From Gautieria morchelliformis (taxonomy: Eukaryota > Basidiomycota > Agaricomycetes > Gomphales > Gomphaceae): a stretch of 64,000 nucleotides of DNA. Both the position numbers and the translations under genes were made by a program. The notes beneath the pieces were generated by a model that was given only the letters and a program-made list of their open reading frames with translations, did no database searches and had not been told where the DNA came from. Shown one piece after another: positions 16,371 to 60,090 of this stretch (positions are counted from its first letter, which is position 1; the number at the start of each line of letters is the position of its first letter). The DNA lies in assembly GCA_015179125.1 (NCBI GenBank), contig WHVA01000017.1, positions 124,001 to 188,000 of the forward strand, given 5' to 3'.

Positions 16371-16918
16371 TGTTACGTATCGAGATTTCCACTAAGTCGG
16401 AACTGGAAAGGACAGCGGCTTCAACTTATAGGTTGCGCCCCCAATGAACTATTGTCCTAGGTATTTCGGAACTGAGTCGGAAGTTGGAAAGTATTGAGCC
16501 AAAGGTTTGGTTGGAACTTGAGCCGGAACTGAGGCGGAAGGCGGAAGGCGGAGAGACTGAGATCTTGCTAGACTCACTGTGCTAAGAACAGGAGATGGAG
16601 AGAAGGAAATCAAGTATCGAAGGCGATTATCTGATTGCAGAATAACAGACATACATGAGGGGGTTTTTATACAAATCGCAGAACAACAAGTAATGGTTTT
16701 GTACTAAGCAAATTCCGGGGGAAGCGGAAGTCGAGTAGACAATGTGTGGGAACTAACTATTGGGAACAATGGGACTACAAGGGGGGTTCAGGGTAAGGTA
16801 GAACAATGGCAAAGAACAAGGGGTCGAGAAAACATATCTGACAACGAACTACAAGGATGACCGGATATATGTTTTTGATGAACGAAGAAGCGGGTCCGGT
16901 GGGTCCGAGTAATAGAGT
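16371..16918 (-). repeat. 3' LTR of element C, distal part (548 bp)
   Basis: Matches 30390-30942 nearly base for base, including TATAAA (minus strand) and the AATCAGATAAT predicted transcript start. It is cut at 16918 by element A and resumes at 23210. Confidence 0.93.
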
Positions 16919-17420
16919 TGTCAGGGGACACCCTGTTTTCCATTTCCAGTTCCGACACCACACCCAGTTCCGACTCCATTTCCGACTTGATTTCCGACTC
17001 CGCTTCCGGTTCCGATTCCATCTCCGCCTCCGCTTTCGGAAATGATTCCGCTTCTGGGAGAACTTCCACCAGTTCTGTTCGCCTTGCCAGTTCCACTCCA
17101 ATTTCCAACTTCCACTCTCGGAACAGTGTCGGAAATCAAGCGACTCGCGTAATAGGTGGCATCAAGGGTCGATCAAGGGTCAGGGTGGTCAGGGAGATGC
17201 AGGGTTGATGGCGGGTGCCGAGTGTTGTCCCTGACTGCGCAGCATAGTATAATACGGGATCGCTGACATTGGGGGTCCTTAGACTTTTCTCTTTGGATTT
17301 CCCCTTGTCAGGTGAGAATCCCCTCTCTTGTATACTCTGTTCATTTATACATACTTTGGATTTCCCCTTGTCAGTTGTGTGGTAGTGTTATCTCCACAAC
17401 CAGCCAGGGTTGCCCTTACA
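16919..17420 (+). repeat. 5' LTR of element A
   Basis: 502 bp, TG...CA. The U3 part is built of TTCCGA/CTCCG hexamer-like repeats. TATAATA lies at 17248 and the predicted RNA start at 17281. A 20-bp direct repeat (TTTGGATTTCCCCTTGTCAG) occurs at 17292-17311 and 17355-17374. Confidence 0.95.
17248..17290 (+). promoter_or_regulatory. LTR core promoter and predicted RNA 5' end, element A
   Basis: TATAATA at 17248-17254. 33 bp downstream lies AGACTTTTCT (17281-17290), which is the exact reverse complement of the primer-binding site just outside the LTR. The spacing fits a transcription start at about 17281. Confidence 0.6.
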
Positions 17421-17422
17421 GC

Positions 17423-17432
17423 AGAAAAGTCT
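17423..17432 (+). other. putative self-priming primer-binding site, element A
   Basis: AGAAAAGTCT starts 2 nt after the LTR end. It pairs 10/10 with the predicted first bases of the transcript (17281-17290). No tRNA 3' end was recognised at this position. Confidence 0.6.
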
Positions 17433-17607
17433 CTCCCCTAGAGGACCGTCGGTCGTACCGCGCGTTGCATTCGCCATAGGTGCGTTCGGAATCGGAGACA
17501 GCGACTCTGAAATCGCAACCTCCTCCGCACACACAGCGTACGACAGCCCCTCTTCTTACGTCGAGCTCCCAATCTCGGAAATCCCGTCCCATATTTCTCC
17601 TTCCGAC

Positions 17608-18783
17608 ATGGGTCCGGACGATCGTCTTCGGAATATGGAGGAGGAATTGACGCGGAACCGGATGAAGACCGACGCGATTGAAACAGCCTTACAAGCGATT
17701 TTGGCTAAGTTAGATATTCCACAAAGTGGTGGAAATGAAATGCTGGATGATCCGGATTTCGGAAAAGCGGAACTAGCGGAAGAGAGAAAGTCCGCGAAGT
17801 TAGCAAAGGTCAAACCCGCAACTCCGGCGGACTTCGACGGAGATCGGGAGAAGGGACGCGCATTCTTCAACACATGCAGCATCTACTTCGCAATTGTCGG
17901 AGACCTCTTTCCGAACGACCAGGCTCGGATTCACTGGGCATTGTCCTTTTTCAAATCGGACCGCGCAGCCCGTTTTGCAAACAAGGTGATCCGACATGAA
18001 GCAAAGGGCAAGGGGAACTACTTCCGGGACTGGGACGCCTTCGAGAAAACATTTTCTGACCAGTTCTGCCCGAAAAATGAGCAGCTCACAGCCCTCACAA
18101 AGCTCGAGGGGACCAGCTGGTACCAGGCCAAGGATCCGGTCGATGACTACATCGATCGCTTCCAGGAGCTCATCGACCTTGCGGAATATGACGACGACAA
18201 GACGATCGTCATCAAATTCCGACGAGGACTCGATCCGACACTCCAGAACCAAGTTGCGCTGCTTGGGGATGGAGCTCCGGATTTTGATGACCCGGAAGGG
18301 TGGTACCAAGCTGCGCAGAGGGTGTCCCAGAACAGGGAGGCAAACGAGGCCTTCGTGGAGACGAGCCGGAACATGACACGCAGTTCCACTCGTCCTACTC
18401 CACCCGTGCCAAAACCCGGAGGCGCATTCATTCCCACACGGAAAATATTTCCGATGCTCGCTCCGCCCGCTCCTATTAGGAACCATAGCCCTCCTCCCTC
18501 GAAGAGTGGCCCTGCCCCGATGGATGTTGACCACATGCGCGGAAAAGGCCACGGAACTATCACCTGCTTCCGATGTCGACAACCAGGCCACTATGCTTGC
18601 GAGTGCCCCCAAGCCTTTGATGTCCGGCTTATGACCACAGAGGAGAAACTCGAGCTCCTTCCAGAGTTCCTCACACTTGCGGACATAAGCGGAGTGCCCA
18701 CTGCGGAAGAAATTTCCGAAAATGCGGAACATGGTCCACCGGAGGTGGAAGATGCGTCGGATTTTGTGACGCGCAGCGGGTGA
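17608..18783 (+). CDS. gag: gag of element A
   Basis: The capsid-type region (PATPADFDGDREKGRAFFNT onwards, then WALSFFKSDRAARFANKV) and the zinc knuckle CFRCRQPGHYACEC (C-X2-C-X4-H-X4-C, about 18568-18609) identify Gag, the structural particle protein that packages element RNA. From the first in-frame ATG (17608) it is 391 codons. The frame is also open for 66 codons upstream to 17410, and that stretch is similar in element B, so a non-AUG or leader-joined start is possible. It ends DFVTRSG at TGA 18781-18783, overlapping the pol frame (-1) by 4 nt. No stop or frameshift is seen. Confidence 0.85.
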   Translation: MGPDDRLRNMEEELTRNRMKTDAIETALQAILAKLDIPQSGGNEMLDDPDFGKAELAEERKSAKLAKVKPATPADFDGDREKGRAFFNTCSIYFAIVGDLFPNDQARIHWALSFFKSDRAARFANKVIRHEAKGKGNYFRDWDAFEKTFSDQFCPKNEQLTALTKLEGTSWYQAKDPVDDYIDRFQELIDLAEYDDDKTIVIKFRRGLDPTLQNQVALLGDGAPDFDDPEGWYQAAQRVSQNREANEAFVETSRNMTRSSTRPTPPVPKPGGAFIPTRKIFPMLAPPAPIRNHSPPPSKSGPAPMDVDHMRGKGHGTITCFRCRQPGHYACECPQAFDVRLMTTEEKLELLPEFLTLADISGVPTAEEISENAEHGPPEVEDASDFVTRSG

Positions 18784-21700
18784 GATGTGTGCCCCTGCTG
18801 CCTGTACATAACCGGTTTGCCTGTCTTGAAGTAGAGAATGAAAAGCCCCCACTCCCCTCACTTCGTGCAGACCCACCGGATAAAGTCACACAAAAACCAA
18901 ATCCGACACCCCATCCATCCTGCATCCACCCTTGGGAGAGACGCCTTCCGAAGCGCTATGTTGTTGCTGCCACCCCTGGCCCCAAGTCACTAGTCATTAA
19001 GGTGGAGGTCCAGACGACAGATACGGCGGAAGTCAAATCCGGACCCGCCCTTGTCGATTGCGGGGCCACTGGTCAGTTTATGGACCGGGACTACGTAGAA
19101 CGGAACCGACTGACCACGCGGAAGTTGCAACGTGCAATCCTGGTGTTCAATGTGGATGGAAGCCCCAATGAGGCAGGGTCCATCACGGAGATAGTAGACA
19201 CAATTCTCCGCTACGATGGACACTCAGAACGCACTTCCTTTGCAGTCACCAGCCTGGGGAAGCAGGACATCATCCTCGGGTTTACCTGGCTTCAGGAGCA
19301 CAACCCGGAGATCAATTGGCAGACTCGGAAGGTACTGATGAGTCGATGTCCAGCCAAGTGTCACATGTGCAGGTTGGAAGTGCGGAAGGAGCTCCAGGAG
19401 CAGCGGAAGACCGAACGGCTCATACAGACATGTCGTTCTGGCCCCCATCCACTGCTTGCAGAAGAAGACTCGGAAGCGGAATTTGAACCGGATCCCACTT
19501 CCGATTCCGATTCCGATTCCGATTCCGACTCCGACGTCATCCGACTCGGCCCGGAAGACACTCTGGCGGAAGGGGAGCGCTTGCTGTACGTAAACCTTCC
19601 ACCGGAAGCGGAACACATCCGCGCCACCGGAAATATTTCGCAACGCCTTGCTGAAGCCTCCAAGAGGCATGATAGAGTGGAGGCGGAACTTCCGGAGTAC
19701 CTGCGGGAGTTCGAGGACGTCTTTTCCAAGGAGTCATTTGATGCCCTGCCTCCACGGAAGCTTGGGACCATGCCATCGAGTTGGAGCCTGGGTCAAAGCC
19801 CACCAACTGCAAAGTCTACCCGCTGTCACCCAAAGAGCAGGTAGAGCTCGATGCATTCCTTGCGGAAAACCTCCGTACAGGGAGGATCCGCCCCTCCAAG
19901 TCACCCATGGCATCTCGGTGTTCTTCATCAAGAAGAAGGACGGCTCACTCAGACTTGTGCAGGATTACTGGGCCTTGAATGTGATCATGATCAAGAACCG
20001 GTACCCCATCCACTCATTTCCGAACTGATCACACAACTCCGCGGGGCGAGGTACTTCACTAAGCTGGATGTCTGCTGGGGCTTCAATAATGTCTGGATCC
20101 GGGAGGGAGACGAGTGGAAGGCCGCATTCCGCACCAACCGAGGACTCTTTGAGCCACAGGTCATGTTCTTTGGCCTCACCAACAGTCCTGCCACGTTCCA
20201 GACGATGATGAATGATATTTTCCGTGACATGATAGCAGAAGGGGTTGTCTGCGTCTACCTTGACGACATCCTCATCTTCACAAAAACAATGTCCGAGCAT
20301 CGGGAAGTCGTGCGGAGAGTGCTGGAACGGCTCCGGGAATACAACCTGTGTCTCAAGCCGGAAAAGTGCGAATTTGAGTGGACGCGGATAGAGTATCTTG
20401 GGGTGATTGTGTCGGAAGGAAAGGTGGAAATGGACCCAGTCAAAGTTTCCGGTGTATTGGAGTGGCCCGTGCCGCGGAACAAGAAGGAGGTCCAGTCCTT
20501 CATTGGGTTTGTCAATTTCTACTGGCGGTTCATCAAGGACTTCTCCTGCCACGCCTGTGCCCTCTTCGACCTCACCAAGAAGGAGGTTGGATGGCGGTGG
20601 GGAGAGCCGGAACAGGCCTCCTTTGACAAACTCAAAGAGCGGATCACTTCTGCCCCGGTCCTGATCTTTCCCGACGACTCTCGCCCTTATCGAGTCGGGC
20701 GGATTCTTCCAACACAGCTACCGGAGCGGTCTTGTCACAACAGTCATCGGAAGATGGTGGAGGGTGGCATACGATTGCCTTCTTCTCTAAGAGCCTTAGT
20801 CCGGTCGAGCGGAACTATGAGATCCATGACAAGGAGATGCTGGCAACCATCCGAGTGCTGGAGGAGTGGCGGCACTTCCTCGAGGGTGCTCTCTGCCCAT
20901 TTGAGATCTGGACGGACCACAAGAACCTCGAGTATTTCCGCACGTCTAAGAAGTTGAACCGACGACAAGCACGGTGGTCCCTACACCTGTCCCAGTTTGA
21001 CTTCATGCTCCACCACTGCCCCGGCCGCACCATGGGCAAGCCCGATGCCCTATCCCGTCGCGCGGATCATGGAAGTGGAAGTGGAGACAACGCGGATATG
21101 ACACTGCTCCGCCCAAGTCTCTTTGCAATCCGTGCCCTAGAAGGAGTGACTGCAGTTGGGGCGGAAGCGGAAATGCTCCGGGATATCCGGAGGCAGTACC
21201 GGAATGGAGAGAAGGAGGAGTCAGTGGTGAAGGCAGTGGGGAACTTCGGAAAGGGCACTCACGGTCTGTACGGGCAGCAGAATGGTCGGAACGTGATGGA
21301 CTGCTCCACTTCAGAGGCAAGGACTATGTTCCAGGTGGGGCGGACCTCCGCCGCCGCATTGTGTCCCAGCACCATGACACATGGGTCGCTGGGCATGCTG
21401 GCAGGTGGAAGACGCTGGAGTTGGTGGCTCAGAACTACTGGTGGCCTCAGATGTCCCGCTACATTGGACAGTACGTGAAGACATGTGACCTTTGTCTCCG
21501 AACCAAAGCACAACGACATTCGCCTGTCAGAGAACTTGTTCCGCTCCCAATTCCCGAATCCCGCTGGGACACCATCAGTGTCGACTTCATCGTTGAACTC
21601 CCAGAGTCTCATGGCTACGACGCAATCATGAACGTCGTGGATTCGGTAAGCAAGGTGTCCCACTTCATTCTGACGCACACGACAATCACAGCCCTCGGAG

Positions 21701-22702
21701 CGGCCCGCCTGTTCCTTGCACATGTCTGGAAGTTGCATGGGCTCCCGAAGCAAGTTGTTTCCGACCGAGGTCCGCAGTTTGTCGCGGAACTGACTCGGGA
21801 GCTCTACCGCCTGCTCGGAATAAAGCTGGCTACCACCACAGCGTACCATCCACAGGGTGACGGGCAGACGGAACGGGTCAATCAGGAGTTGGAGCAATAT
21901 CTCCGCCTCTTTGTCAATGAGAGGCAGGATGACTGGGATGAGTTACTTCCACTGGCGGAATTCCAATACAACAACCATGTCCATTCCGCCACACAACAGA
22001 CTCCCTTCATGCTTGACTCCGGACGACACCCGTGGATGGGCTTCGAGCCACGCCAGGCTGACTCCCGACTCGAGATGGTCAACAAGTTCCGAGACCGCAT
22101 GGACTCCACCCTTTCGGAAGCCAAGTCGGCCCTTGCGAAGGCCAAGGATGACATGGCAAGGTACTACAACCAACGTCGGGTTCCTGCCCCGGAGTACCAA
22201 GTTGGAGATAAGGTGTATCTAGATGCAAGTGACATCCGCACCACACGCCCTTCGCAGAAGCTTGCCCACCGGTACCTCGGGCCCTTCACAGTGACGCGGA
22301 GGGTTGGACGGAATGCATACCGCCTCTGACTTCCGATGTCCATGTCCCGCCTCCACCCCGTCTTCAACGTGGTGAAGTTACTCCCTATGCTTGAGGACCC
22401 AATTCCAGGTCGGAAGGCTCGTCCGCCACCTCCGCCAGAAATTGTAGATGGGGAAGAGCACTATGTGGTGGAACGGATCCTGGACAGCCGGTTTGTGCGA
22501 GGACGACTCCAATTCCTCGTGAAATGGGAAGGGTATGGATACGAGGAGAATTCGTGGATCCTGGAGCAAGATGTTTCCGCTCCAGACAAACTCCGTGACT
22601 TCTATAGGACACACCCCGGTGCCCCTCGCCGAATCCGCTCGCTGGCATTTCAATCCCTCGTGTCCCGTGCTTCAAGGACGCAGCACGCTAGAGGGGGGGT
22701 GA
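18780..22702 (+). pseudogene. pol: pol of element A (protease-RT-RNaseH-integrase-chromodomain), frameshifted
   Basis: The order of domains can be followed in shifting frames. The protease has LVDCGATGQF (about 19055), followed by RT with VYLDDILIF near 20255. RNase H shows DHKNLEYF near 20920. Integrase has a zinc-binding region near 21370 and the core SVDFIVEL / SDRGPQF / DGQTERVNQELE (D,D,X35,E). A TGA at 22327-22329 then precedes the chromodomain (VERILDSRFVRGRLQFLVKW). At least five one-base deletions relative to B break the frame. YRALN has become YWALN, and DVRWGF has become DVCWGF, both CpG-type transitions. The element cannot make a full Pol itself. Confidence 0.93.
22690..22699 (+). 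other. polypurine tract of element A
   Basis: AGAGGGGGGG lies 3 nt before the 3' LTR, where plus-strand DNA synthesis would be primed. Confidence 0.7.
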
Positions 22703-23204
22703 TGTCAGGGGACACCCTGTTTTCCATTTCCAGTTCCGACACCACACCCAGTTCCGACTCCATTTCCGACTTGATTTCCGACTCCGCTTCCGGTTCCGAT
22801 TCCATCTCCGCCTCCGCTTTCGGAAATGATTCCGCTTCTGGGAGAACTTCCACCAGTTCTGTTCGCCTTGCCAGTTCCACTCCAATTTCCGACTTCCACT
22901 CTCGGAACAGTGTCGGAAATCAAGCGACTCGCGTAATAGGTGGCATCAAGGGTCGATCAAGGGTCAGGGTGGTCAGGGAGATGCAGGGTTGATGGCGGGT
23001 GCCGAGTGTTGTCCCTGACTGCGCAGCGTAGTATAATATGGGCTCGCTGACATTGGGGGTCCTTAGACTTTTCTCTTTGGATTTCCCCTTGTCAGGTGAG
23101 AATCCCCTCTCTTGTATACTCTGTTCATTTATACATACTTTGGATTTCCCCTTGTCAGTTGTGTGGTAGTGTTACCTCCACAACCAGCCAGGGTTGCCCT
23201 TACA
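22703..23204 (+). repeat. 3' LTR of element A
   Basis: 502 bp, the same length as the 5' LTR. It differs at a handful of sites (for example AGCGTAG for AGCATAG and ATATGGGC for ATACGGGA around the TATA box). Confidence 0.95.
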
Positions 23205-23209
23205 AGAGT

Positions 23210-23344
23210 CGAAAGAACAAGGAAAATGTACAAGGGGCGGAATGTCGGAAATATCGGATGGGCGGAATGTGTTGCGGAAATGTCGGAGGTGCGGAAGGTG
23301 TGGCGGAACTGAGGGTCGGAAGTCGGAAATGAACGGTCGTAACA
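23210..23344 (-). repeat. 3' LTR of element C, proximal part (135 bp)
   Basis: Continues the split LTR; 548 + 135 = 683 bp equals the right LTR. The inner edge is TGTTACGACC on the minus strand, preceded by a purine tract (AGAAGGGAGATAC). Confidence 0.92.
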
Positions 23345-23466
23345 GTATCTCCCTTCTAAGGTCGAGCCCCACGAGACCACAAGTCGGAATCACGTGACCT
23401 GTGAACAAACACGTCGGAGTTTGAAAGATAGGCGGGAAACAGGACGCGTCTTCTGTTTCATCCACC

Positions 23467-24670
23467 ATGAGCACTCCAGTCGATTTCTCCAAAATGACCA
23501 GTGCTGAGATGAAACAGCACTTTGCCGATATGCTTGCACAGAAGGAATTGGCCGAAAAGCGCGAGGCCGAGGAAGCCGCGCGGAAAGAGGAGGAGCGCAA
23601 GGAGAAAGAGCGCATGGAACAGGAGCGTCGGGAACGGGAGCGGAAAGAGAAGGAGGAGCGTGACCGTAAACGTCGCGAGGAGGAGTCGTGCGTCTGCGAA
23701 GAACAGCGGAAACGGGACGCGGCCAAAAAGGCTGCGGAAGACAAGGCCGCGGCGGAGAAGGCGGGAAAATCCCGGGTGAGTCCGAAAGGTTTCTGAGTAT
23801 CGTCCCGAGACTGACAGAGAAAACTTGGCAGAAAATAATCGTCGAATCCGATTCCGAACCGGAAACACGCCGTCCCCTGAGGGGAAGGGGAAACACAAGG
23901 AAGTAATTCCTGTGTTGAACCTTGTGGCGGATCGGAAAAGGAGGGCGGACGACTTCCAACAGGCCAGGAAGAACAAAATGGCCCGCATTATCGATCTCCG
24001 GGAGTTGGGACCAGAGAATCCCGCGACCTGGAAGTGGAAAACAAGGGGCGAGGAAGAAGAAAAGGCACCTTGCGACACATGCGAGGTGAGGGGACTAGAA
24101 TGCATCTGGTCGGAAAATCCGTGGGAAACCACCTGTGATCGGTGCCGCGACAAGAAGAGGCGGTGTGTAGTGGACGGCTGTTCCGCGAGGGTGGAGCGGA
24201 AAAGGCGGAAAGTCGAGACCAAGGGGCCAGAAACCCCAAAGTCAAAACCAAAGTCGAGCGGGAAAAAGGGCGCGGAAGGCTTTCCGGTGACCAGGCAGTC
24301 GGAAACAGCGGTGTTAAACCGCTTCACCATGGGGTCGCCCCTACTCGATATCGCCGAGTCCTTGAGGGGGATCCGGAAAACGCAGCGCGGGATCCGGAAC
24401 ATTCTGCTGGAAATTGCGGAGGTCCAACGACACCAAGTGTTGTCGTTCCAAAATCAGATGACTGTAATGTCAACAGTTTTGGAGCAGCTGAAGCGGGAGT
24501 TCCGGTGGCGGAATGATTTGTTCCGGGACCAACTGGGGTTGCGAGAGGAGCAGGAGAATGGGGCGGGAACGAGGGTGGAGACAGAGTTGGTCAACGTGGA
24601 AATAGGTCAGGCGGAAGAAGGTGCGGAAGCGGAGAACGGAGGTGAAGCGGAGACGATGAGGGAGGAGTAG
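23467..24670 (+). CDS. element C accessory gene: coiled-coil / Zn2Cys6-like protein, antisense to gag-pol
   Basis: It starts STPVDFSKMTSAEMKQHFAD at ATG 23467 (CACCATG) and runs into a strongly charged Glu/Arg/Lys coiled coil. Exon 1 ends CGG|GTGAGT at 23775; the acceptor is TTGGCAG at 23831. Exon 2 has an acidic stretch, a basic stretch, then the cluster at 24071-24166: C-X2-C-X6-C-W(+2)-X-C-X2-C-X6-C with X10 between halves and RCRDKKRRC in the second half. Zn(II)2Cys6 proteins of fungi use this spacing to bind CGG triplets (family knowledge). A helical C-terminus ends at TAG 24670. The frame changes by one base near 23875, so this copy may be frameshifted or have a second small intron. Homologues occupy the same place in elements D and E. 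Its function is not known. Confidence 0.7.
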
Positions 24671-24802
24671 GGTGTCAGGGTGACTTGTAATAGTTTTCTT
24701 GAAGTGTCGGAAAATAGCATATTGGAATAATAATCGGATTTTTAACAACGACTTGAGAATCTGTAAGAAAGCAATGGGAATCGGAAAAGAGGTCGGATTT
24801 GA

Positions 24803-27800
24803 CTAGGGCGCGGAAATGGGGCCAGGCTTATCAGGATAAGACTTGTGGAAATCAGAGACGAGGTCAGAGGCGTGGTCGAGTTCCGTGGCGGAAATCCAGG
24901 AAGTCTCTTCGTCGGTGTTTTCATAGCCTGCCCACTTGACTAGGTACTGGAGTTGGCAGCGGTATCTTCTGTCGAGCTTGGAGTTGAGAATTTCCGAAAT
25001 CTCATATTCCGGTTCTCTGTCGATGACGACTGGCAGAGGCGGAGGTTGTGTTGGGTGCATTGATGCTCCTGCACCAAAATCAAGCATAATATATCCAATT
25101 TGTTGTGTGCTTTCTCAATTTCTTTTCATTTTGTTCTTGTATCATGCATCCATTTCTCTGGTTATTTTCGAAATTTTCCACTCACTCCCTATCTCTCCAT
25201 TTCATCTTGTTATTCCTACTTTCACAAGCTGCACCCAGCGGAGTCTGAAATGACTTCGACGCGCGAGCTCTTGGGCGCTAAAGGGCCGGGTAGTAGTACA
25301 TGCGCAGTCAAACAGTTTCCCCCTCTCTCAGTGACAACTAAATTCACTGAGAGAGGCAAGTAAATTAGTCTAGCATTCTTTCGATTTATTAACCTAGAAA
25401 TCCTCTGTAGTGAATTGTTTTCTAGTGAATTGTTTTCTAGTCTATTCTTTTGCGCAAGAAGTCCATTCCTACTGCCTATAATTCCTGTCCTCCACAGGTT
25501 GTTCTCGATTTGGAATTGTATTCGGAACTGCTGGCTCAAGCATAGAGACATGGAATACCGGATGTACTGCACGCATATTGTCAGGAAGTCTGAGGGTGAA
25601 AGAACGACTGCCGGCCTTAGCGATGATCTCGTAAGGACCGAGGTATTTCTCAGAGAGCTTCTTGGAGGGGCGAGTGGTGCGGAGGTTTTCCGCTTTGACA
25701 AAGGCTTTGTCGCCAATCTCGAATGCCGGTTGCGGAAGTCGTTTCCGATCGGCGGAAGTTTGGTATCTCTTCTGGGCAGCGGTAATGTTCTCTCGGAGGT
25801 GCTGGTGAAGGTCGTCGAGTTCCACAACGAAATCTTGGGCTCTTGCAGAGGCGAGGTCGCGTTCAGGGTGGATGGCGAGATTCGGGTGGTAGCCCTTGTT
25901 GGCGTAAAAGGGTGAAATTCCGGTGGTAGCGGAAGGCGCGTTGTTGTAGGCAAATTCCGCAAGCGGAAGAAGGTCGGACCAATTGCTATGTTGGTAGTTG
26001 CAATAGACGCGGAGATACTGCTCAAGGGTCTGATTAGTACGTTCCGTTTGTCCGTCTCCTTCGGGATGATAACCGGAAGTGAAGTGGAGTTTCATGTCGA
26101 GAGCCTTGCCGAGTGTGCGGAAAAAGGAGGACACAAATTCGGAACCACGGTCGGAAGTGACATGGGAAGGGATTCCGTGCTTGGAAAAGACGTGGAGCAC
26201 AAAGAGCTGTGCGAGCTGGGCGGAAGTTATGGTGTCATAGGTCGGAATAAAGATGGACTGCTTTGTGAGGCGGTCAACGATCACTAGAATGGTATCATAG
26301 CTGGATGACTTAGGAAGTTTCTCAATGAAATCCATAGATATCGAATTCCACGGTTGTTCCGGGATCGGAAGTTGCTTCAGGAGGCCGTAGGGTTTGTGAC
26401 GTTGAGGCTTGGCTCGCATACAGGTGGTGCATGAGTTGCAGTAGTCTTGGACCATCGTGCGGAGAAGAGGCCAAGTGTAGGTTCGTCGGATTATGTCAAG
26501 GGTTTTGTTCTGGCCTTGGTGTCCTGAGAGCGGATGCTTTGCTGGAGTACGCGAAGTCGTAGATCATTGGTGTCCGGAACGTAAATCCGGGACTTGTACC
26601 GGAGGAATCCGTCGGAATTGAGGGACCATCCAGGACTGGTGGGGTCATTGAGGTGGGTTGCGGAGGTGGGGTCGGAACGGAGTGCGGAACGGATGTCGGA
26701 ATGGAGAGACTCGGTGTCCATGACAATTGAGGCGCGGAGTAGCGGAAACCGCAATGCTGTGGCACGCAGGGACGATGCCAGTTGCTCAGTGGAAAATACT
26801 GGGCGGAAGTTGTGCGGATTAACGCTGGCATAGTCGCTACTTCCCTCTTTTGGGTAGACGTCCCAACGTCTAGTGAGCGCGTCGGGTTTTGCTCCGAGCT
26901 TTCCGGGGCGGAAGCGGATCACCATGTTGAACTGTGAGAGATATTCAGACCAGCGGACTTGATGGCGAGTCAAAATCTTAGTGGTTGCAAAATACTCAAG
27001 GTTCTTATGATCCGTTACAATGTCGATCGGATAAGTTGGACCTTCGAGGTAGTGTCTCCAAATTTTGAAGGCTTCGAAAATCGCAAGTAGTTCCTTATCG
27101 TGGACGTCATAGTTGAGTTCCGGGGCGGAAAAGGTGCGGGAATGAAAGGCGATCGGATCAATTTCTCCGTTGTCGGGTGAAATGATGGAAAGAATGGCGG
27201 CTAGCGCGTAATCGGAAGCGTCGGTTTCGAGTACAAGTTGGGCATCAGGAATCCAGAAACCGAGTATGGGAGCCGTGGTGAAGGCCGATTTGAGAGCTTC
27301 AAATGCGGAACGGCATTCCGGAGTGAAATTCCATGGGGCACCCTTCCTGGTGAGACGCGTGAGCGGAACAGTAATGTCGGAAAAATTATAAATGAAACTC
27401 CGGTAAAAGTTGGCGAAGCCAAGGAAAGACTGCACATCCTTAACACGTCGGGGTTCCGGCCATTCTTGAATTGCCTTGACCTTGTCCTCTGCCATGGTAA
27501 GACCTGTTGGAGAGAGGATGTAGCCGAGGTATTCGACCGTGTCGTGATGCCATTCGCATTTCTCTGCTTTTGCGTAGAGATGATGTTTGCGTAGACGGCG
27601 GAGTACTTCGCGGACATGTTCCCGATGTTTTTCCGGTGTGTCAGAATAGATGAGGATGTCGTCAATGTAGACTAGGACGCATACGTCGAGGAGGTCGGAA
27701 AATACGTCGTTCATGAATCGCTGAAAAGCGGCGGGAGCGTTGGTTAGACCAAAAGGCATGACAGTCCACTCAAAAGCACCGTAGCGGGTGCGGAAGGTGG

Positions 27801-28950
27801 TTTTCCACTCGTCACCTTCCTGGATGCGGACAAGGTGATAAGCGTGCCGGAGGTCAATTTTGGTGTAGATCTTCGCCCTGCGGGGAGTGTCGAGTAAGTC
27901 GGAAATGCGCAGAAGCGGATATTTGTCCTTTTTGGTGAGGGCATTGAGTCCGCAGAAATCGACGCAGAGGCGGAGAGATCCATCCTTCTTTTTGACGAAA
28001 AGGACCGGAGCGCCATGCGGAGACAGCGAAGGGCGGATAAAGCCCATGTTGAGATGTTCATTGATGAACTCGCGGAGAGTTAGGAGTTCACTTTGTGAAA
28101 GAGAGTAGATCGGTCCAAGGGGCGGAGATGCTCCTTCTTCCAGATCTATCTTCAGATCGTAAGGTGGATGTTCAGCAGGTTTGTCAGCTTTGGCCTTATT
28201 GAACACGTCCGGGAAGTCACGATATTCTTCCGGAACTGAGCTCATATTGACCGGAGCGGAAGTTGAGGCAGAACGAGCCTCGACTGAAGCCGAATCAGAG
28301 AGGTGAAGCTGGAAAACGGTCGTATCATCTTGCCGTTGCAATACGCGGAAAGCGGTGGCGGAAACGAGCGCAATCCGAGGAGCTTCGAGGGGCGGAGGGG
28401 CTAAAGCGGGACCGGAGTGCGGAACTGAATCCACGAGCGGAGTTGCAGAAGAGGCCTGGGCCATCTTTGCGGACGACGTCGGAATAGACGGAAGTTGATC
28501 CGGGGTACGGAACTGTATTTGACCCAATGCCCAGTTAATCGACGGATTATATCGGGTGAGCCAATTGTGTCCTAGTACAACGGAGCAGCTAGCATCTAGT
28601 GGAGTAACGTAAAACGTAACTTCATGGTTGTCCCCAGTAGCGAAGCGGATAGACAGATCCACAACTTGGGAAATTCCCGTGTTGGAAGACCCGTCGAAAA
28701 GGTGGAGCGGAATAGTCGGAATGTTGCGGGTCGGAAGTTTGTGTTTCAAAACAAAGTCGGAATCGAGGAAACAGTGAGTCGAACCGGAGTCGATCAATGC
28801 TGTAAACGGGGGTGCGGAAATGGTGTCGGAAGTGAGGGGAACAGATAGGGAGTCGGAGGACGAAAGAGCGGATGCGTTGAGTTTAACCTTGTTTGTCGCA
28901 CGAATGGGGTCAACACAGCCCTCAGCTCGTGCGGAGGCCGGAGGACTGCT
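24803..28950 (-). pseudogene. pol: pol of element C, interrupted
   Basis: The -1 frame entered at the slippery run (28956-28962) leads to protease IDSGSTHCFL (about 28795), RT with VYIDDILIYSD (about 27675) and RNase H ending in DHKNLEYF (about 27010). The integrase follows, with core SMDFIEKL / SDRGSEF / DGQTERTNQTLE. The GPY/F-type segment is KYLGPYEII and the chromodomain is YEISEILNSKLD...YLVKWAGYENTDEETSW. A 7-bp deletion near 26535, relative to element E, removes part of the integrase zinc finger and shifts the frame. The solo LTR at 25050-25496 splits the linker before the chromodomain. The last codon lies at 24803. Confidence 0.93.
25050..25496 (+). repeat. solo Copia-type LTR inserted in pol of element C
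   Basis: 447 bp, TGTTGGGTGCAT...CTCCACA, flanked by GGTTG on both sides (25045-25049, 25497-25501). Removing it and one GGTTG rejoins the pol linker. The same LTR family is at 31608-38350. It contains a 15-bp duplication TAGTGAATTGTTTTC and an inverted pair CTCTCTCAGTG / CACTGAGAGAG. Confidence 0.9.
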
Positions 28951-28952
28951 GA

Positions 28953-28962
28953 CTATTTTTTT
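28953..28962 (-). promoter_or_regulatory. -1 ribosomal frameshift site, gag-pol of element C
   Basis: On the minus strand the heptamer A AAA AAA is followed directly by the gag stop TAG. Slipping back one base gives an uninterrupted frame into protease. The same heptamer and stop occur in element E (40738-40747), and a six-A version in D. Confidence 0.75.
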
Positions 28963-30356
28963 GCATCCGCAGCGGGAGCCGCTTCGGATTTCTCTTCCGT
29001 CTTTGCTGCGCGGCCCTTGGCCTTAGCAGCGGAGGCGGAAGCGCGAGTGCAGTCACGAGCGACGTGACCTCCTTTGCCGCAGAAGAGGCAAAGGTTGTTG
29101 TCCATGCGACGCTGGCGTTCTATGGGGGTTAGTTTTCCGTCCTTCCCAAGTTTGTCGGAAAGGTCCGGAGTGCTCTTCCGGGCGTTGGTGTTTGAACCAG
29201 AGGCCTGGTTATTGCGAGGGGTGTTGTTGTTGTTGTTCCGGTTGCCGGAGTTGGATCCGGAACTTGTGTTGTTGTTGTTTCCGGAGTTGTTGGTTCCGGA
29301 ATTAGTCTTCTTCTTGTCTTTATCAGACTTCTTGTCGGAAGACTTGTCGTTCTTGTTCTGGGCGGAAGTTTCGCGAGCAATCTCGGAGTGTCTTTCCCAG
29401 TAGCGCGAATTGATAGATTGGGCGAGGTTGCGGAGGTCGGTAAGGGTGGCGGGTTTTCTGACGCGGGCAATTTCATCCTTGATGCGGGATGGCAAGCCCA
29501 TGTAAAACTGGCATCGGAGTGCGGCTTCTCCCCATTGGACTCGAGGAGCAAGCTGCTGAAACGTGACGATATATTTAGCTATCTTATGAGTGTCTTTCAT
29601 GTGAAGCTTATCGAGTTCATTTTCCGCATCGGCTTCCATATCAAATGGTCCGAAGTTGCTGCGGAGTTCGGAAATGAAATTGGGGTAATCGTCGGCCCAG
29701 TCGATGAGAGCGAACGGATCCATGAGGGCGGGTTCGAAGTAGTCGAGAGCCGTGCCTCGGAGATAGGAAAGGGCGTAATTGACCTTTCGTTCGTCCTCGG
29801 GAAAGGCGTCGGGATGATCACGGAAATTGAGTTGAAGCTGGACCAGGAATGGCTGGAGCTTCTTGGGGTCGGAACTGTCGAACTGATCTGGTTCGCGGAC
29901 CTTTGTCTTGGGGCGTGGTGGTGCTTGGGCCAGGCGCTGGAGTTGTCCGGCTAGCATGGCGATGGCTTGTGCAAGATCCGGAACTGGCGCGGGCGGAACT
30001 GGGTTGGCGGGAATCTGAGGTGGAATTGGAGGTGGAGGACTGCCTGGGGGACCGCCGGGTGGGCCGCCTGGAGGTGGTCCTGGTGGAGGTGGAGGTGGAG
30101 CTGGGTGTCGGAATGACGCTGTTGTTTGTTTGCCGCTGCTACTCGTCGAATTCCCGTCATAGTCGGGATTGTCGTCGGGATTAGCGTCGGGAACTTCTTT
30201 GAATCGTTGCGGAAAAGCATCGGAAAGCTCATCGTCGGCACGAGAGCTGCTGGAGGGTTCCGCGTGCCTTGGTGCTGCGGATCTAAGACTGCCAAAATAA
30301 GAGAGAGCTTCGACAGCTCCTGCTCGAGCTGAAGTAGCTGTGGTACGAGGAGGCAT
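28953..30356 (-). CDS. gag: gag of element C
   Basis: 467 codons from ATG 30356 (ACCATGCCTCC). A low-complexity Pro/Gly head (PPPGPPPGGPPGGPPG) precedes the capsid-like region (DQFDSSDPKKLQPFLVQLQL ... YLRGTALDYFEPAL) and WGEAALRCQFYMGLP. An Asn/Ser-rich linker and the zinc knuckle CLFCGKGGHVARDC follow. The frame ends in GCA AAA AAA TAG, so readthrough into pol can occur by -1 slippage. The reading frame is intact. Confidence 0.93.
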   Translation of the reverse strand: MPPRTTATSARAGAVEALSYFGSLRSAAPRHAEPSSSSRADDELSDAFPQRFKEVPDANPDDNPDYDGNSTSSSGKQTTASFRHPAPPPPPPGPPPGGPPGGPPGSPPPPIPPQIPANPVPPAPVPDLAQAIAMLAGQLQRLAQAPPRPKTKVREPDQFDSSDPKKLQPFLVQLQLNFRDHPDAFPEDERKVNYALSYLRGTALDYFEPALMDPFALIDWADDYPNFISELRSNFGPFDMEADAENELDKLHMKDTHKIAKYIVTFQQLAPRVQWGEAALRCQFYMGLPSRIKDEIARVRKPATLTDLRNLAQSINSRYWERHSEIARETSAQNKNDKSSDKKSDKDKKKTNSGTNNSGNNNNTSSGSNSGNRNNNNNTPRNNQASGSNTNARKSTPDLSDKLGKDGKLTPIERQRRMDNNLCLFCGKGGHVARDCTRASASAAKAKGRAAKTEEKSEAAPAADAKK

Positions 30357-30376
30357 GGTGATAGTTATCGGGTGGG

Positions 30377-30387
30377 AATCAGATAAT
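30377..30387 (-). other. putative self-priming primer-binding site, element C
   Basis: On the minus strand ATTATCTGATT lies 2 nt downstream of the 5' LTR end. It is an 11/11 match to the complement of AATCAGATAAT in the LTR at 30655-30645. Confidence 0.65.
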
Positions 30388-30389
30388 AC

Positions 30390-31072
30390 TGTTACGTATC
30401 GAGATTTCCACTAAGTTGGAACTGGAAAGGACAGCGGCTTCAACTTATAGGTTGCGCCCCCAATGAACTATCGTCCTAGGTATTTCGGAACTGAGTCGGA
30501 AGTTGGAAAGTATTGAGCCAAAGGTTTGGTCGGAACTTGAGCCGGAACTGAGGCGGAAGGCGGAAGGCGGAGAGACTGAGATCTTGCTAGACTCACTGTG
30601 CTAAGAACAGGAGATGGAGCGAAGGAAATCAAGTATTGAAGGCGATTATCTGATTGCAGAATAACAGACATACATGAGGGGGTTTTTATACAAAGCGCAG
30701 AACAACAAGTAATGGTTTTGTACTAAGCAAATTCCGGGGGAAGCGGAAGTCGAGTAGACAATGTGTGGGAACTAACTATTGGGAACAATGGGACTACAAG
30801 GGGGGTTCAGGGTAAGGTAGAACAATGGCAAAGAACAAGGGGTCGAGAAAACATATCTGACAACGAACTACAAGGATGACCAGATATATGTTTTTGATGA
30901 ACGAAGAAGCGGGTCCGGTGGGTCCGAGTAATAGAGTCGAAAGAACAAGGAAAATGTACAAGGGGTGGAATGTCGGAAATATCGGATGGGCGGAATGTGT
31001 TGCGGAAATGTCGGAGGGGCGGAAGGTGTGGCGGAACTGAGGGTCGGAAGTCGGAAATGAACGGTCGTAACA
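30390..31072 (-). repeat. 5' LTR of element C
   Basis: 683 bp; on the minus strand TGTTACGACC...CGTAACA. It is followed by the CTCGG duplication (31073-31077). Confidence 0.94.
30645..30690 (-). promoter_or_regulatory. LTR core promoter and predicted RNA 5' end, element C
   Basis: On the minus strand TATAAA (30690-30685) is followed 35 bp later by AATCAGATAAT (30655-30645), the sequence complementary to the primer-binding site. Confidence 0.6.
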
Positions 31073-48301: not shown

Positions 48302-49862
48302 CTAGTCCTCCTCCATGGTATTTTCTCTGGCCCCTGCACCATCCTCTGCCTCCGGACCCCCTGCATCTCTGTCCCACCCATACGTCTCCTCGAACCTCAT
48401 CATGTCTTGGACTTTGCCCTCTGACACCTCCACACCCACTTCCATGTCCGCCATCTCCTGCATCCACCTCAATTCCATCACCACCTGATTGAGGTGCTCG
48501 TCATATGCGCAGAATCGATCTGAGACCGCACTGTAAAGCTGGTGCTGCATGCACAGCCCCTGTTCCCCTTGTCGGAGCAGTCCCTGGAGCGACCTAGTGA
48601 TATCCACGAGTGGATCCGCTGTCCACTCCTCTCCTGTCACCCCACTTCCGCTCACCTCCGGCACCCCTTGGACCCCCTTCACCTTGGCAGCCCTGGACAA
48701 GGGTTTCCACCCTCCTTGTGAGGGCTTTTCCGAATCCACCTCCAAAGCTCCGGTCTTCCTGGGCTTAGCCATCACTCGAGCCTTGAGCCCGTCAACCACG
48801 CAGGCTCATTTTCCATCCTTGCACCAGTTGCAAGCTGTGGCCTTTCTGGCCAGGTCCCAGACACAAGGGAGCTCCTTCTCCAAGCAGCCTTCGCAGCTTG
48901 GCTGGCTACAATGGGCCCTCGTCTTCCAGAGTCGCTCTTTTGCCTCCCGCATGGTGTGCCTCCTTCCGGCGCTGCTTTTCCTCCTGCGCCGCCCACCATT
49001 CCACCGTCGCTTTCCCCTTGCCTTTGTTTTTTGGCTTCGGAGTTTCTTCCGGTGCGTCTTTTGACGGAGTCTCGCTCTGCATGGAAATCTCGTCCACGTC
49101 GGAAAGCTTTATCTGTTCCGATAGTCAGCCTACTCTATCAAGAACAAGGAAGAACTTACCTTTGACGCGGCTTGACTCTTCTCCGCCGCAGCTGCCTTTT
49201 CCACAGCAGCTTGCTCTTCCGCAAGTTTTTCTGCCGCTTCCTCGGCCTCCCATTCTTCCTGTTCGCACTCGATGCATTCGAGCTCCAGACGGTCGTGCTC
49301 CTCCTGGTCCTTGTGCTCCTTTTCCTTGCGCTCCTGGTCCTTGCGCTCCTGGTCCTTGCGCTCCTGGTCCTTGCGCTCCTGGTCCTTGCGCTCCTGTTTT
49401 CCTCTGTCCTTGCGCTCCTGGTCCTTGCGCTCCTGGTCCTTGCGCTCCTGGTCCTTGCGCTCCTGGTCCTTGCGCTCCTGGTCCTTGCGCTCCTGGTCCT
49501 TGCGCTCCTGTCCTTGCGCTCCTGGTCCTTGCGCTCCTGGTCCTTGCGCTCCTGGTCCTTGCGCTCCTGGTCCTTGCGCTCCTGGTCCTTGCGCTCCTGG
49601 TCCTTGCGCTCCTGGTCCTTGCGCTCCTGGTCCTTGCGCTCCTGGTCCTTGCGCTCCTGGTCCTTGCGCTCCTGGTCCTTGCGCTCCTTCCTTTTTCTTT
49701 GCACTCCTGCTCCTTGCGCTCTTCCTCCAGCCGCTCCTTCTCCCTTTTAGCGGCCTCCTCGGCCTCGCGCTTTTCCGCCGATTCCTTCTCCGCGAGCATG
49801 TTGGCGAAATGTTCTTTCATTTGTGTGCTGGTTATTTTTGAGAAGTCGAGTGGGGAGCTCAT
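48302..49862 (-). pseudogene. element E accessory gene: coiled-coil / Zn2Cys6-like protein, antisense to gag-pol
   Basis: Minus-strand start SPLDFSKITSTQMKEHFANM is clearly homologous to the accessory protein of C. A coiled coil follows, expanded by the 15-bp minisatellite at 49311-49690, in which the frame slips. Further on, SDVDEISMQSETPSKDAPEE precedes the cysteine cluster at 48895-48800 (CEGCLEKELPC, then W, then CNWC). A TGA at 48808-48806 lies inside the second half of the cluster, where the C copy encodes a basic residue. The C-terminal helical part ends at 48302. Its place, between pol and 3' LTR and opposite to both, is the same as in C and D. Confidence 0.8.
49311..49690. repeat. 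15-bp minisatellite, about 25 units
   Basis: Tandem copies of TCCTTGCGCTCCTGG; the minus-strand frame reads repeats of Gln-Glu-Arg-Lys-Asp. Two irregular units, near 49395 and 49511, break the 3-nt phase, so downstream copies are read as Ser-Ala-Arg-Thr-Arg or Ala-Gln-Gly-Pro-Gly. Confidence 0.93.
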
Positions 49863-52400: not shown

Positions 52401-52862
52401 TGTCAGGGGACACCCTGTTTTCCATTTCCAATTCCGACTCCATTTCCGACTCCGCTTCCGGTTCCGATTCCATCTCCGCATCCGCTTTCGGGAACGATTC
52501 CGCTTCTGGGAGAACTTCCACCAGTTCCGTTCGCCTTGCCAGTTCCACTCCAATTTCCGACTTCCGCCCCGGAACAGTGTCGGAAATCAAGCGACTCGCA
52601 TAATAGGTGGCATCAAGGGTCGATCAAGGGTCAGGGGGATGCAGGGTTGATGGCGGGTGCCAAGTGTTGTCCCTGGCTGCGCAGCGTAGTATAATACGGA
52701 CTCGCTGACATTGGGGGTCCTTAGACTTTTCTCTTTGGATTTCCCCTTGTCAGGTGAGAACCCCCTCTCTTGTATGCTCTGTTCATTTATACATACTTTG
52801 GATTTCCCCTTGTCAGTTGTGTGGTAGTGTGATCTCCACAACTAGCCAGGGTTGCCCTTACA
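52401..52862 (+). repeat. 5' LTR of element B
   Basis: 462 bp TGTCAGGGG...CTTACA; identical by eye to 58132-58593. Confidence 0.96.
52690..52732 (+). promoter_or_regulatory. LTR core promoter and predicted RNA 5' end, element B
   Basis: TATAATA at 52690, AGACTTTTCT at 52723-52732, 33 bp apart, as in element A. Confidence 0.6.
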
Positions 52863-52864
52863 GC

Positions 52865-52874
52865 AGAAAAGTCT
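52865..52874 (+). other. putative self-priming primer-binding site, element B
   Basis: AGAAAAGTCT, 2 nt after the LTR; 10/10 complementary to 52723-52732. Confidence 0.62.
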
Positions 52875-53049
52875 CTCCCATAGAGGACCGGCGGTCGTAC
52901 TGCGTGTCGCAGCCGCCATAGGTGCGTTCGGAATCGGAGACAGCGACTCGGAGATCGCAACCTCTTCCGCACACACAGCGTACGACAGCCCTTCTTCTTA
53001 CGTCGAGCTCCCAACCCCGGAAATCCCGTCCCACATTTCTCCTTCCGAC

Positions 53050-54225
53050 ATGGATCCGGACGATCGTCTTCGGAATATGGAGGAGGAATTGACGCGGAAC
53101 CGGATGAAGACCGACGCGATTGAAACAGCCTTACAAGCGATTTTGGCTAAGTTAGATATTCCACAAGGTGGTGGAAATGAAATGTTGGACGACCCGGATT
53201 TCGGAAAAGCGGAACTAGCGGAGGAGAGAAAGTCCGCGAAGTTAGCAAAGGTCAAACCCGCAACTCCGGCGGACTTTGACGGAGATCGGGAGAAGGGACG
53301 CGCATTCTTCAACACATGCAGCATCTACTTCGCAATTGTCGGAGACCTCTTTCCGAACGACCAGGCTCGGATTCACTGGGCATTGTCCTTTTTCAAGTCG
53401 GACCGCGCATCCCGTTTTGCAAACAAGGTGATCCGACATGAAGCAAAGGGCAAGGGGAACTACTTCCGAGACTGGGACGCCTTCGAGAAAACATTTTCCG
53501 ACCAGTTCTGCCCAAAAAATGAGCAGCTCACAGCCCTTACGAAGCTCGAGGGGACGAGCTGGTACCAGGCCAAGGATCCGGTCGATGACTATATCGATCG
53601 CTTCCAGGAGCTCATCGACCTTGCGGAGTATGATGACGACAAGACGATCGTCATCAAATTCCGACGAGGACTCGATCCGACACTCCAGAACCAAGTTGCG
53701 CTGCTTGGGGATGGAGCTCCGGACTTTGATGACCCGGAAGGGTGGTACCAAGCTGCACAGAGGGTGTCCCGGAACAGGGAAGCAAATGAGGCCTTCGTGG
53801 AGACGAGCCGGAATATGACGCGCAGTTCCACTCGTCCTACTCCACCTGTGCCAAAATCCGGAAGCGCATTCATTCCCATGCGGAAAGTATTTCCGACGCT
53901 TTCTCCGCCCGCTCCTATTAGGAACCATAGCCCTCCTCCCTCGAAGAGTGGCCCTGCCCCGATGGATGTTGACCGCATGCGCGGAGAAGGCCGCGGAACT
54001 ATCACCTGCTTCCGATGTCAACAACCAGGCCACTATGCCCGCGAGTGCCCCCAAGCATTTGACATCCGGCTTATGACCACAGAGGAGAAACTCGAGCTCC
54101 TTCCAGAGTTCCTCGCACTTGCGGACATAAGCAGAGTGCCTACTGCGGAAGGAGTTTCCGAAAATGCGGAACATGGCGCATCGGAAGCGGAAGATGCGTC
54201 GGATTTTGTGACGCGCAGCGGGTGA
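53050..54225 (+). CDS. gag: gag of element B
   Basis: 391 codons from ATG 53050; the frame is open back to 52852 (66 further codons, similar in element A), so a longer non-AUG-initiated product cannot be excluded. A coiled coil (RNMEEELTRNRMKTDAIETA) precedes the retrotransposon capsid region (DFDGDREKGRAFFNTCSIYF, WYQAKDPVDDYIDRFQELI). The zinc knuckle CFRCQQPGHYAREC has all four ligands, unlike decayed copies. The stop TGA overlaps the pol frame by 4 nt (-1 frame); no classical slippery heptamer is visible, so the way pol is expressed is unclear. Confidence 0.93.
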   Translation: MDPDDRLRNMEEELTRNRMKTDAIETALQAILAKLDIPQGGGNEMLDDPDFGKAELAEERKSAKLAKVKPATPADFDGDREKGRAFFNTCSIYFAIVGDLFPNDQARIHWALSFFKSDRASRFANKVIRHEAKGKGNYFRDWDAFEKTFSDQFCPKNEQLTALTKLEGTSWYQAKDPVDDYIDRFQELIDLAEYDDDKTIVIKFRRGLDPTLQNQVALLGDGAPDFDDPEGWYQAAQRVSRNREANEAFVETSRNMTRSSTRPTPPVPKSGSAFIPMRKVFPTLSPPAPIRNHSPPPSKSGPAPMDVDRMRGEGRGTITCFRCQQPGHYARECPQAFDIRLMTTEEKLELLPEFLALADISRVPTAEGVSENAEHGASEAEDASDFVTRSG

Positions 54226-57758: not shown

Positions 57759-57764
57759 CTTCCG

Positions 57765-58334
57765 ATGTCCATGTCCCGCCTCCACCCCGTCTTCAACGTG
57801 GTGAAGTTACTCCCTATGCTTGAGGACCCAATTCCAGGTCGGAAGGCTCATCCGCCACCTCCGCCAGAAATTGTAGATGGGGAAGAGCACTACGTGGTGG
57901 AACGGATCCTGGACAGCCGGTTTGTGCGAGGACGACTCCAATTCCTCGTGAAATGGGAAGGGTATGGGTACGAGGAGAATTCGTGGGTCCCGGAGCAAGA
58001 TGTTTCCGCTCCTGACAAACTCCGGGAGTTTTATAGGACACATCCAGGTGCCCCTCGCCGAATCCGCTCGCTGGCATTTCAATCCCTTGTGTCCCGTGCT
58101 TCGAGGACGCAGCACGCTAGAGGGGGGGTGATGTCAGGGGACACCCTGTTTTCCATTTCCAATTCCGACTCCATTTCCGACTCCGCTTCCGGTTCCGATT
58201 CCATCTCCGCATCCGCTTTCGGGAACGATTCCGCTTCTGGGAGAACTTCCACCAGTTCCGTTCGCCTTGCCAGTTCCACTCCAATTTCCGACTTCCGCCC
58301 CGGAACAGTGTCGGAAATCAAGCGACTCGCATAA
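57765..58334 (+). CDS. chromodomain extension of element B pol, behind an in-frame TGA
   Basis: In the same frame as pol, after CTC TGA CTT CCG: SMSRLHPVFNVVKLLPMLED, then the chromodomain YVVERILDSRFVRGRLQFLV KWEGYGYEENSW split by me for length, with the aromatic cage positions Tyr, Trp and Tyr. In chromoviruses this module directs integrase to methylated-histone chromatin (family knowledge). The frame then crosses the purine tract into the 3' LTR and ends at 58334 with a Ser/Asp-rich tail. It could be translated by UGA readthrough or by re-initiation at the ATG codons at 57765/57771. Confidence 0.8.
   Translation: MSMSRLHPVFNVVKLLPMLEDPIPGRKAHPPPPPEIVDGEEHYVVERILDSRFVRGRLQFLVKWEGYGYEENSWVPEQDVSAPDKLREFYRTHPGAPRRIRSLAFQSLVSRASRTQHARGGVMSGDTLFSISNSDSISDSASGSDSISASAFGNDSASGRTSTSSVRLASSTPISDFRPGTVSEIKRLA
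58119..58128 (+). other. polypurine tract of element B
   Basis: AGAGGGGGGG, 3 nt upstream of the 3' LTR; identical in element A. Confidence 0.7.
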
Positions 58335-58593
58335 TAGGTGGCATCAAGGGTCGATCAAGGGTCAGGGGGATGCAGGGTTGATGGCGGGTGCCAAGTGTTG
58401 TCCCTGGCTGCGCAGCGTAGTATAATACGGACTCGCTGACATTGGGGGTCCTTAGACTTTTCTCTTTGGATTTCCCCTTGTCAGGTGAGAACCCCCTCTC
58501 TTGTATGCTCTGTTCATTTATACATACTTTGGATTTCCCCTTGTCAGTTGTGTGGTAGTGTGATCTCCACAACTAGCCAGGGTTGCCCTTACA
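58132..58593 (+). repeat. 3' LTR of element B
   Basis: 462 bp, identical by eye to the 5' LTR. Confidence 0.96.
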
Positions 58594-59973: not shown

Positions 59974-60090
59974 ACTAGGAAATGGCATAATAGACTTTTC
60001 TTGGATTTTATCGATTTTTGTTTTTGTGCGATTGCGAGGGGTTTTTGTCATCTAACTACTGGGGTCATGGGGATTAACAAAGGAGAACGA

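Follow-up and report, generated by a model that had tools for sequence, protein, structure and literature searches.

The window, by which we mean the whole stretch of 64,000 nucleotides that was analyzed, holds elements C, D, E and A, in which a pol with Ty3-type reverse transcriptase (RT) and integrase, a C-terminal chromodomain and LTRs (the second LTR of D lying beyond the window) identify Ty3/gypsy chromoviruses. Element C extends over 16371-31072 between copies of a 5-bp flanking repeat (CTCGG), with gag and pol on the minus strand and the chromodomain at the end of pol, and its 3' LTR is split by a nested element, A1 (flanking repeat AGAGT). The 3' LTR of element D is likewise interrupted, by a second A element, A2. 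An accessory gene, antisense to pol and convergent with it, lies between the end of pol and the 3' LTR in C, D and E alike. An earlier note on this DNA had placed such genes there, and their coordinates, strand and cysteine spacing, as well as the antisense position, were borne out. The features of the window are as follows.

16371..16918, minus strand: 3' LTR of element C, larger piece, split by A1
16919..23204, plus strand: nested chromodomain element A1; CGGAA-saturated, no six-cysteine accessory frame found
23205..23344, minus strand: 3' LTR of element C, remaining piece
23345..31072: CGGAA-saturated region, body and 5' LTR of element C
23345..23466, plus strand: leader between the LTR/PPT side and the accessory ATG; similar across copies
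23467..23775, plus strand: accessory exon 1 of element C (309 nt, 103 codons, charged and coiled-coil-like), followed by a GTGAGT donor; homologous in other C-type copies
23776..23831, plus strand: intron of element C predicted from the sequence (56 nt, GTGAGT..GGCAG, CTGAC-like branch sequence)
23832..24670, plus strand: accessory exon 2 of element C; six-cysteine cluster from 24071, frame disrupted upstream of the cluster
24830..25069, minus strand: chromodomain at the pol end of element C (Pfam PF00385, E 5.4e-9)
25472..26455, minus strand: integrase of element C (rve, SH3_Tf2-1)
26491..28797, minus strand: protease, RT and RNase H of element C
28953..30356, minus strand: gag of element C (Ty3 capsid, weak CCHC)
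30390..31072, minus strand: 5' LTR of element C; CGGAA 14+1 in 683 nt
48302..49862, minus strand: accessory gene of element E, broken; coiled-coil part expanded (about 30 units of 15 bp)
52401..58593, plus strand: nested chromodomain element A2, within the D LTR; 5-bp flanking repeat TACTC, CGGAA-saturated, no six-cysteine accessory frame found
58665..64000: CGAGG-saturated region, element D
58848..59054, plus strand: accessory exon 1 of element D (207 nt, 69 codons), open frame
59101..59973, plus strand: accessory exon 2 of element D (873 nt); C-X2-C-X6-C-X15-C-X2-C-X6-C
60100..60399, minus strand: chromodomain at the pol end of element D

Three A insertions are present in the window, two of them full copies (16919-23204 and 52401-58593) and one a solo LTR (43031-43511), inside C, D and E, respectively. 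In the element C copy, extra sequence at 25070-25471 separates the integrase from the chromodomain; it partly resembles locus L095 by eye, and is perhaps another insertion. A further repeat-bounded element (31942-38316) shows a mild excess of CGAGG (18 vs 10.9 expected) and no six-cysteine frame, and three 103-bp tandem units, 100, 84 and 67% identical to the first, occupy 44529-44837.

The accessory proteins and their cysteine cluster

Of the three accessory genes in the window, that of element D has the only open two-exon frame, with a predicted intron of 46 nt, in agreement with the earlier note. The same note attributed a charged coiled coil followed by a cysteine cluster to all three genes, which holds for C to the extent that exon 1 is coiled-coil-like, but not for D, where exon 1 does not appear to be of this kind and the charged stretch is C-terminal to the cluster; moreover, the C and E frames are broken. 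The continuing frame of the C copy stops 24 residues into exon 2, ahead of the cluster, and the E copy contains 6, 7 and 12 stops in the three frames. The common N-terminus claimed for C and E was recovered, the start of E exon 1 being 59-74% identical to C-type loci, vs 27-38% for exon 2 (aligned stretches). The 15-bp repeat expansion of the E gene spans 49193-49779 and recalls the tandem peptide repeats of the variable regions of the VANC proteins discussed below, as given in the accessible part of their description.

The C cluster has the form C-X2-C-X6-C-X10-C-X2-C-X6-C, with a seventh cysteine, five residues past the sixth, that is invariant in an alignment of 11 C-type sequences. The E cluster has the same six-cysteine spacing with a stop codon within it, and the D cluster has a linker of X15 and no basic run. 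Both C-type (X10) and D-type (X15) clusters follow the spacing of the fungal Zn2Cys6 profile PF00172 (C-X2-C-X6-C-linker-C-X2-C-X6-C), but the Zn2Cys6 label given by the earlier note is only partly supported, with weak profile matches for the C type. All 11 C-type members matched PF00172 at E<=1, but 10 of the 11 fell under the curated cut-off of 21 bits, the exception being L041 (22.1 bits), and there was no match for the D-type copy of the window (E<=0.1) or for the D-type locus L029 (E<=1). Basic residues are shared with the profile, and each half of the cluster matches a profile half in single copies. However, the halves of the C type are swapped, such that the first half corresponds to profile positions 15-35 and the second half, in L048, to positions 1-13; the canonical order, with basic residues in the first half, was not found, and the second half of the C copy in the window gave no PF00172 match by itself.

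A protein-database search with C exon 2 returned no match at E<=0.001, and a C-type profile returned none at E<=1. The D-type profile had a single match, the Gautieria morchelliformis protein P0001, in which only the C-terminal 88 residues are common to the D type; parts of P0001 recur in this genome with up to 98% identity. In P0001 and in G000:C170:55238-56349, these 88 residues are fused to an unrelated N-terminal module, which would fit a D-type tail that is mobile in its own right. A PDB sequence search gave no match for C and one chance-level match for D (E 4.4). Comparison of the D-type and C-type profiles yielded a probability of 0.3%, and the sequences therefore give no proof of homology between the two types.

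Copy number, selection and cassette exchange

The accessory gene is not limited to the three copies noted earlier. A search of the genome (122 Mb, 1113 contigs) revealed at least 138 C-type matches, at least 151 D-type matches (from 136 scored candidates) and at least 42 E-type matches. Of the C-type matches listed, 138 with that of the window, 113 had no stop in the matched stretch (stops were counted, not frameshifts), and such numbers of copies with stop-free stretches exclude chance. The earlier note had proposed linkage to pol and LTR, and dN/dS over many copies, as checks, and both came out in favor of a retained gene. An integrase on the opposite strand was found within 1.31 kb at 19 of the 20 C-type loci fetched with their flanks, and within 0.5 kb at 17 of these; at L027 and L024 it lay 0.7 and 1.3 kb from the accessory match, respectively, and at the exception, L017, the contig ends 1.8 kb into the pol side, a stretch that contained no integrase. 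The integrase also adjoined the gene at seven of eight further accessory loci, including L050, where it was 45% identical. The eighth, L055 (G000:C489:10560-12100), has a C-like RT on the accessory gene's own strand instead of an integrase, a rearranged or nested place. In the reverse direction, ten integrase loci were chosen that had no listed accessory match, and exon 2 was found at the expected place in nine of them (62-71% identity), while the tenth, L064, had the start of exon 1 only.

Pairwise dN/dS values (NG86) were calculated over exon 2 for 24 C-type copies (276 pairs) and 13 D-type copies (78 pairs). The C-type set comprised 29 copies minus L018, which has no cluster pattern, and four with open frames of less than 230 residues. 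Median dN/dS was 0.24, 0.20 and 0.17 for C-type pairs in the dS bins 0.2-0.4, 0.4-0.7 and 0.7-1.2, and 0.20 and 0.19 for D-type pairs in the bins 0.2-0.4 and 0.4-0.7, with dS possibly inflated by CpG decay. At dS of 0.1 and less the medians were higher (0.38 and 0.41), as expected from the decay of copies after insertion. The accessory gene is under purifying selection in both families, with a median dN/dS of about 0.2. Strong positive selection on the whole protein is ruled out by these values, and capture by chance, or a decaying host gene, by copy number, linkage and dN/dS together. These results support the earlier claim that the gene is a functional part of the element lineage.

Among 39 C-type elements, the accessory frame was usable in 31 and the LTR stretch in 34, and 23 had both of these and an integrase. 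In the latter, integrase and LTR distances were correlated (Mantel rho 0.79, a value reached in 0 of 500 permutations), whereas accessory distances correlated with neither (rho -0.04 and 0.00). Of 103 pairs with integrase dS <0.1, 67 had an accessory dS >0.5, and the median accessory dS of all 103 was 1.25. L014 and L058, for example, share about 470 nt of LTR at 99.8% identity and have an integrase dS of 0.053, vs an accessory dS of 1.60. When the four most discordant of seven scanned pairs were compared from end to end, identity dropped just 5' of the accessory ATG and returned near the end of pol. Young elements thus exchange old C-type accessory alleles as whole units, and template switching is the presumed route. 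Fast mutation of the accessory gene as the sole cause of its divergence is ruled out, since both flanks are nearly identical, and the recurrence of related alleles at several loci makes chimeric assembly an unlikely cause. No such exchange was detected in six D-type pairs (accessory dS 1.2 to 2.5 times RT dS). The leader at 23345-23466, whose seed was found in 34 of the 39 loci, is alike even where the accessory alleles differ strongly, and is a possible promoter.

Family-specific five-base words

Beyond the content of the earlier note, two properties of these elements were observed: the exchange of the C-type cassette, and short words specific to each family. CGGAA was the most enriched 5-mer in 20 of 20 C-type loci, which are related copies rather than independent trials, and in both A copies, while CGAGG took this place in 5 of 5 D-type stretches, in which CGGAA was at expectation. 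Each family had an excess of its own word (z 6.7 to 20.9 for C-type, 9.1 to 11.8 for D-type) and not of the other (z -0.4 to 2.6 and -1.1 to 0.8, respectively); CGGAA was also in excess in E (z 8.8). In element C the excess over dinucleotide expectation on the accessory strand extended through LTR (z 9.5), gag (z 8.2) and pol (z 14.0). Word density changed in steps at element borders (1-kb bins), reaching 15.7-22.0 words per kb in C (gag 15.7, pol 15.9, LTR 22.0), 15.0-21.3 in A2 and 10.5-15.1 in D, vs a background of 1.9-2.0 in window positions 1-16000.

Both words contain a CpG, and they could in principle be products of mutation bias or codon usage. However, the excess survived the dinucleotide control and permutation of synonymous codons, which preserves the protein and its codon usage: for CGGAA on the accessory strand of C, z was 5.3 in gag, 7.2 in RT, 4.9 in integrase and 2.8 in accessory exon 2, and in A2 it was 5.8 in gag and 8.3 in pol. 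The permutation result was weak for CGAGG in D (RT z 3.0, other frames 1.4-1.7) and for E (z 2.5). An open frame outside these elements (7201-10461, 1086 codons, no Pfam match at E<=0.1), used as a control for word counts, gave z 0.8. Mutation bias also predicts the same excess in unrelated non-coding host DNA with an equal composition, and none was present in window positions 1-16000; families of one genome differ in their word, and pieces of five other elements are unenriched. We regard this explanation as barely credible.

The five pieces were 2-kb pol stretches from the same genome, four of them gypsy and one copia, and neither word was in excess in any of them. Word-free L089 has a pol 52-56% identical to those of C and D, word-free L093 is 57% identical to the pol of A, and no six-cysteine frame was found in the 1.6 or 1.2 kb beyond their pol. 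The RTs of C and D are 64% identical and their words differ, whereas those of C and A are 39% identical and the word is the same. Together, the RT identities and the word-free relatives indicate that the words, in this sample, do not follow the descent of pol, and occur only in the gene-bearing families and in A. C and A mostly have CGGAA at different places. They have it in common at 4 of 33 aligned sites in RT, where 1.07 were expected, and at 5 of 18 in integrase, where 0.90 were; in view of this small excess, shared ancestry of some of these words is possible.

Within families the words show a strand bias (77 vs 29 in C, in favor of the accessory strand; 46 vs 17 in D), as might be expected if they acted in RNA, in packaging or capsid binding. 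However, A and C do not agree in which strand, relative to gag-pol, carries most of the words, and A2 is enriched on both strands; the difference between A and C speaks for DNA over RNA, and leaves a role in RNA with a very slight probability. In the spacing of the words in C, only a direct gap of 7 stood out (8 vs 1.07 expected); it was not a peak in A1, and no spacing was common to C and A1. We also considered whether the CpGs within each family's own word are better conserved than others. The proportion changed was lower in 299 and higher in 121 ordered C pairs, and lower in 20 and higher in none of the ordered D pairs. In nine disjoint C pairs, however, 120 of 675 own-word CpGs had changed vs 392 of 2134 others (p 0.77), and the apparent conservation did not hold in these pairs; in three D pairs, two of which had a copy in common, the numbers were 16 of 128 vs 148 of 699 (p 0.02). 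Better conservation of own-word CpGs was therefore not robust.

A possible reader of the words and its counterparts

A dispersed word that is specific to a family favors a sequence-specific DNA binder, and the accessory protein is a candidate for this role. We propose, at about an even chance of being correct, that it attaches to the word of its family over the full length of the element and antagonizes silencing, in the manner of the VANC proteins of Arabidopsis. In such a mechanism the protein, with its Zn2Cys6-like cluster, would recognize the word as double-stranded DNA (CGGAA for the C and E types, CGAGG for the D type), and the charged coiled-coil-like part would serve perhaps for self-association. 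Because the element would have accumulated its own word in LTR, coding and non-coding DNA alike, at about 10-22 copies per kb, the protein could cover members of its family and hardly any other DNA, and keeping element chromatin open against host silencing would be the likeliest purpose. That the words occupy both strands and the entire body suggests coating of the element rather than a single promoter site. In exon 2 of 31 C-type copies the best conserved parts are the cluster (81%) and the preceding 40 residues (83%), a pattern in keeping with alleles that all read the same word. The pairing of protein and word has been seen twice, with two protein types and two words in one genome, E being a relative of C.

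The main rival is that the words are sites for DNA-binding proteins of the host, for example host Zn2Cys6 factors, which the elements exploit for transcription or open chromatin while the accessory protein acts otherwise. Words of the CGG type are usual for fungal Zn2Cys6 factors and suit them generally, and element A, which carries CGGAA without the gene, also fits a host reader. On the other hand, the words fill coding DNA beyond the LTRs, and in this sample they were found in the gene-bearing families and A and were absent from the pieces of five other elements. We consider a host reader unlikely. It is less probable again that the accessory protein controls copy number by acting on its own LTR promoter, as a trans-activator or a repressor, with the other words as by-products. 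The CGGAA excess in the C LTR would be in line with such a role, as would the conserved leader before the gene, in which 31 of 34 loci have CACGTG and 28 have ACGCGT; against it, word density in gag and pol is not far under that of the LTR and withstands codon-preserving shuffles. Finally, the protein could tether cDNA or integrase to word-dense DNA, thereby steering further insertions into copies that are already in place. The two full A copies of the window and its A-type solo LTR sit in C, D and E, but these are three insertions only, the host of A2 is element D, which is not enriched in CGGAA, and chromodomains already offer targeting to heterochromatin. We find tethering highly improbable.

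Returning to the anti-silencing proposal, we infer DNA binding by the accessory protein, an anti-silencing effect, and use of the C-type protein in trans by element A, which is read as having acquired the C word without the gene. The broadest form of this idea, which we hold tentatively and at slightly less than even confidence, is that fungal chromoviruses write a self-identifying five-base word throughout their genomes, coding DNA included; that the antisense gene encodes its zinc-cluster reader; that the reader is a readily swapped, highly polymorphic cassette of old alleles; and that unrelated elements copy the word and use the reader for free. If true, it would amount to a molecular self-recognition code among transposons, and both self-recognition and freeloading could be put to a direct test. 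Words as simple as these lend themselves to binding assays at once, and could yield sequence-specific chromatin tools.

Among the open-licence papers listed in our literature searches, none described fungal LTR elements with an antisense zinc-cluster gene or a dispersed word. Transposon-borne, likely anti-silencing genes are known in Basidiomycota, where DNA transposons carry TET/JBP dioxygenases; these are enzymes, and the accessible part of that account describes no sequence word (PMC12730594). Plant Gypsy elements of the Grande, RIRE2 and Retand type resemble C, D and E in that an accessory ORF with predicted DNA binding lies antisense at the same place, from pol to the 3' LTR. However, they are not chromoviruses, their proteins have a TRP28 domain (PF04195) and no cysteine cluster, and neither a family-wide word nor cassette exchange is described in the accessible part of the report (PMC11963269). 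PF04195 had no match in the accessory proteins that we scanned.

The molecular details of self-specific resistance to silencing are known from plant DNA transposons, the VANDAL elements of Arabidopsis, whose VANC proteins are anti-silencing factors with demonstrated binding and loss of methylation, according to the accessible parts of the reports (PMC5735166; PMC10398659). VANC21 recognizes YAGTATTAY, which is dense only in its own family, and VANC6 recognizes other motifs, found also in the unrelated AT9TSD1 (PMC5735166, in part). As far as these accounts extend, both systems combine a transposon-encoded protein with dense, family-specific short motifs, the accessory protein is less conserved than the mobility protein in both, and element A would correspond to AT9TSD1 as an unrelated element sharing a motif. 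The differences are that VANDALs are DNA transposons with a different protein, that their motifs lie mainly in non-coding tandem repeats where our words occur also in coding DNA, and that binding was demonstrated there and is predicted here. The VANC domains are named DUF1985/DUF287 (PMC5735166, in part), and 11 C-type members and one D-type copy had no Pfam match to these at E<=1. The accessory gene and its words would represent a fungal LTR-element counterpart to the plant VANC system, with a different protein, words in protein-coding DNA, a word carrier that lacks the gene, and a reader exchanged as a cassette.
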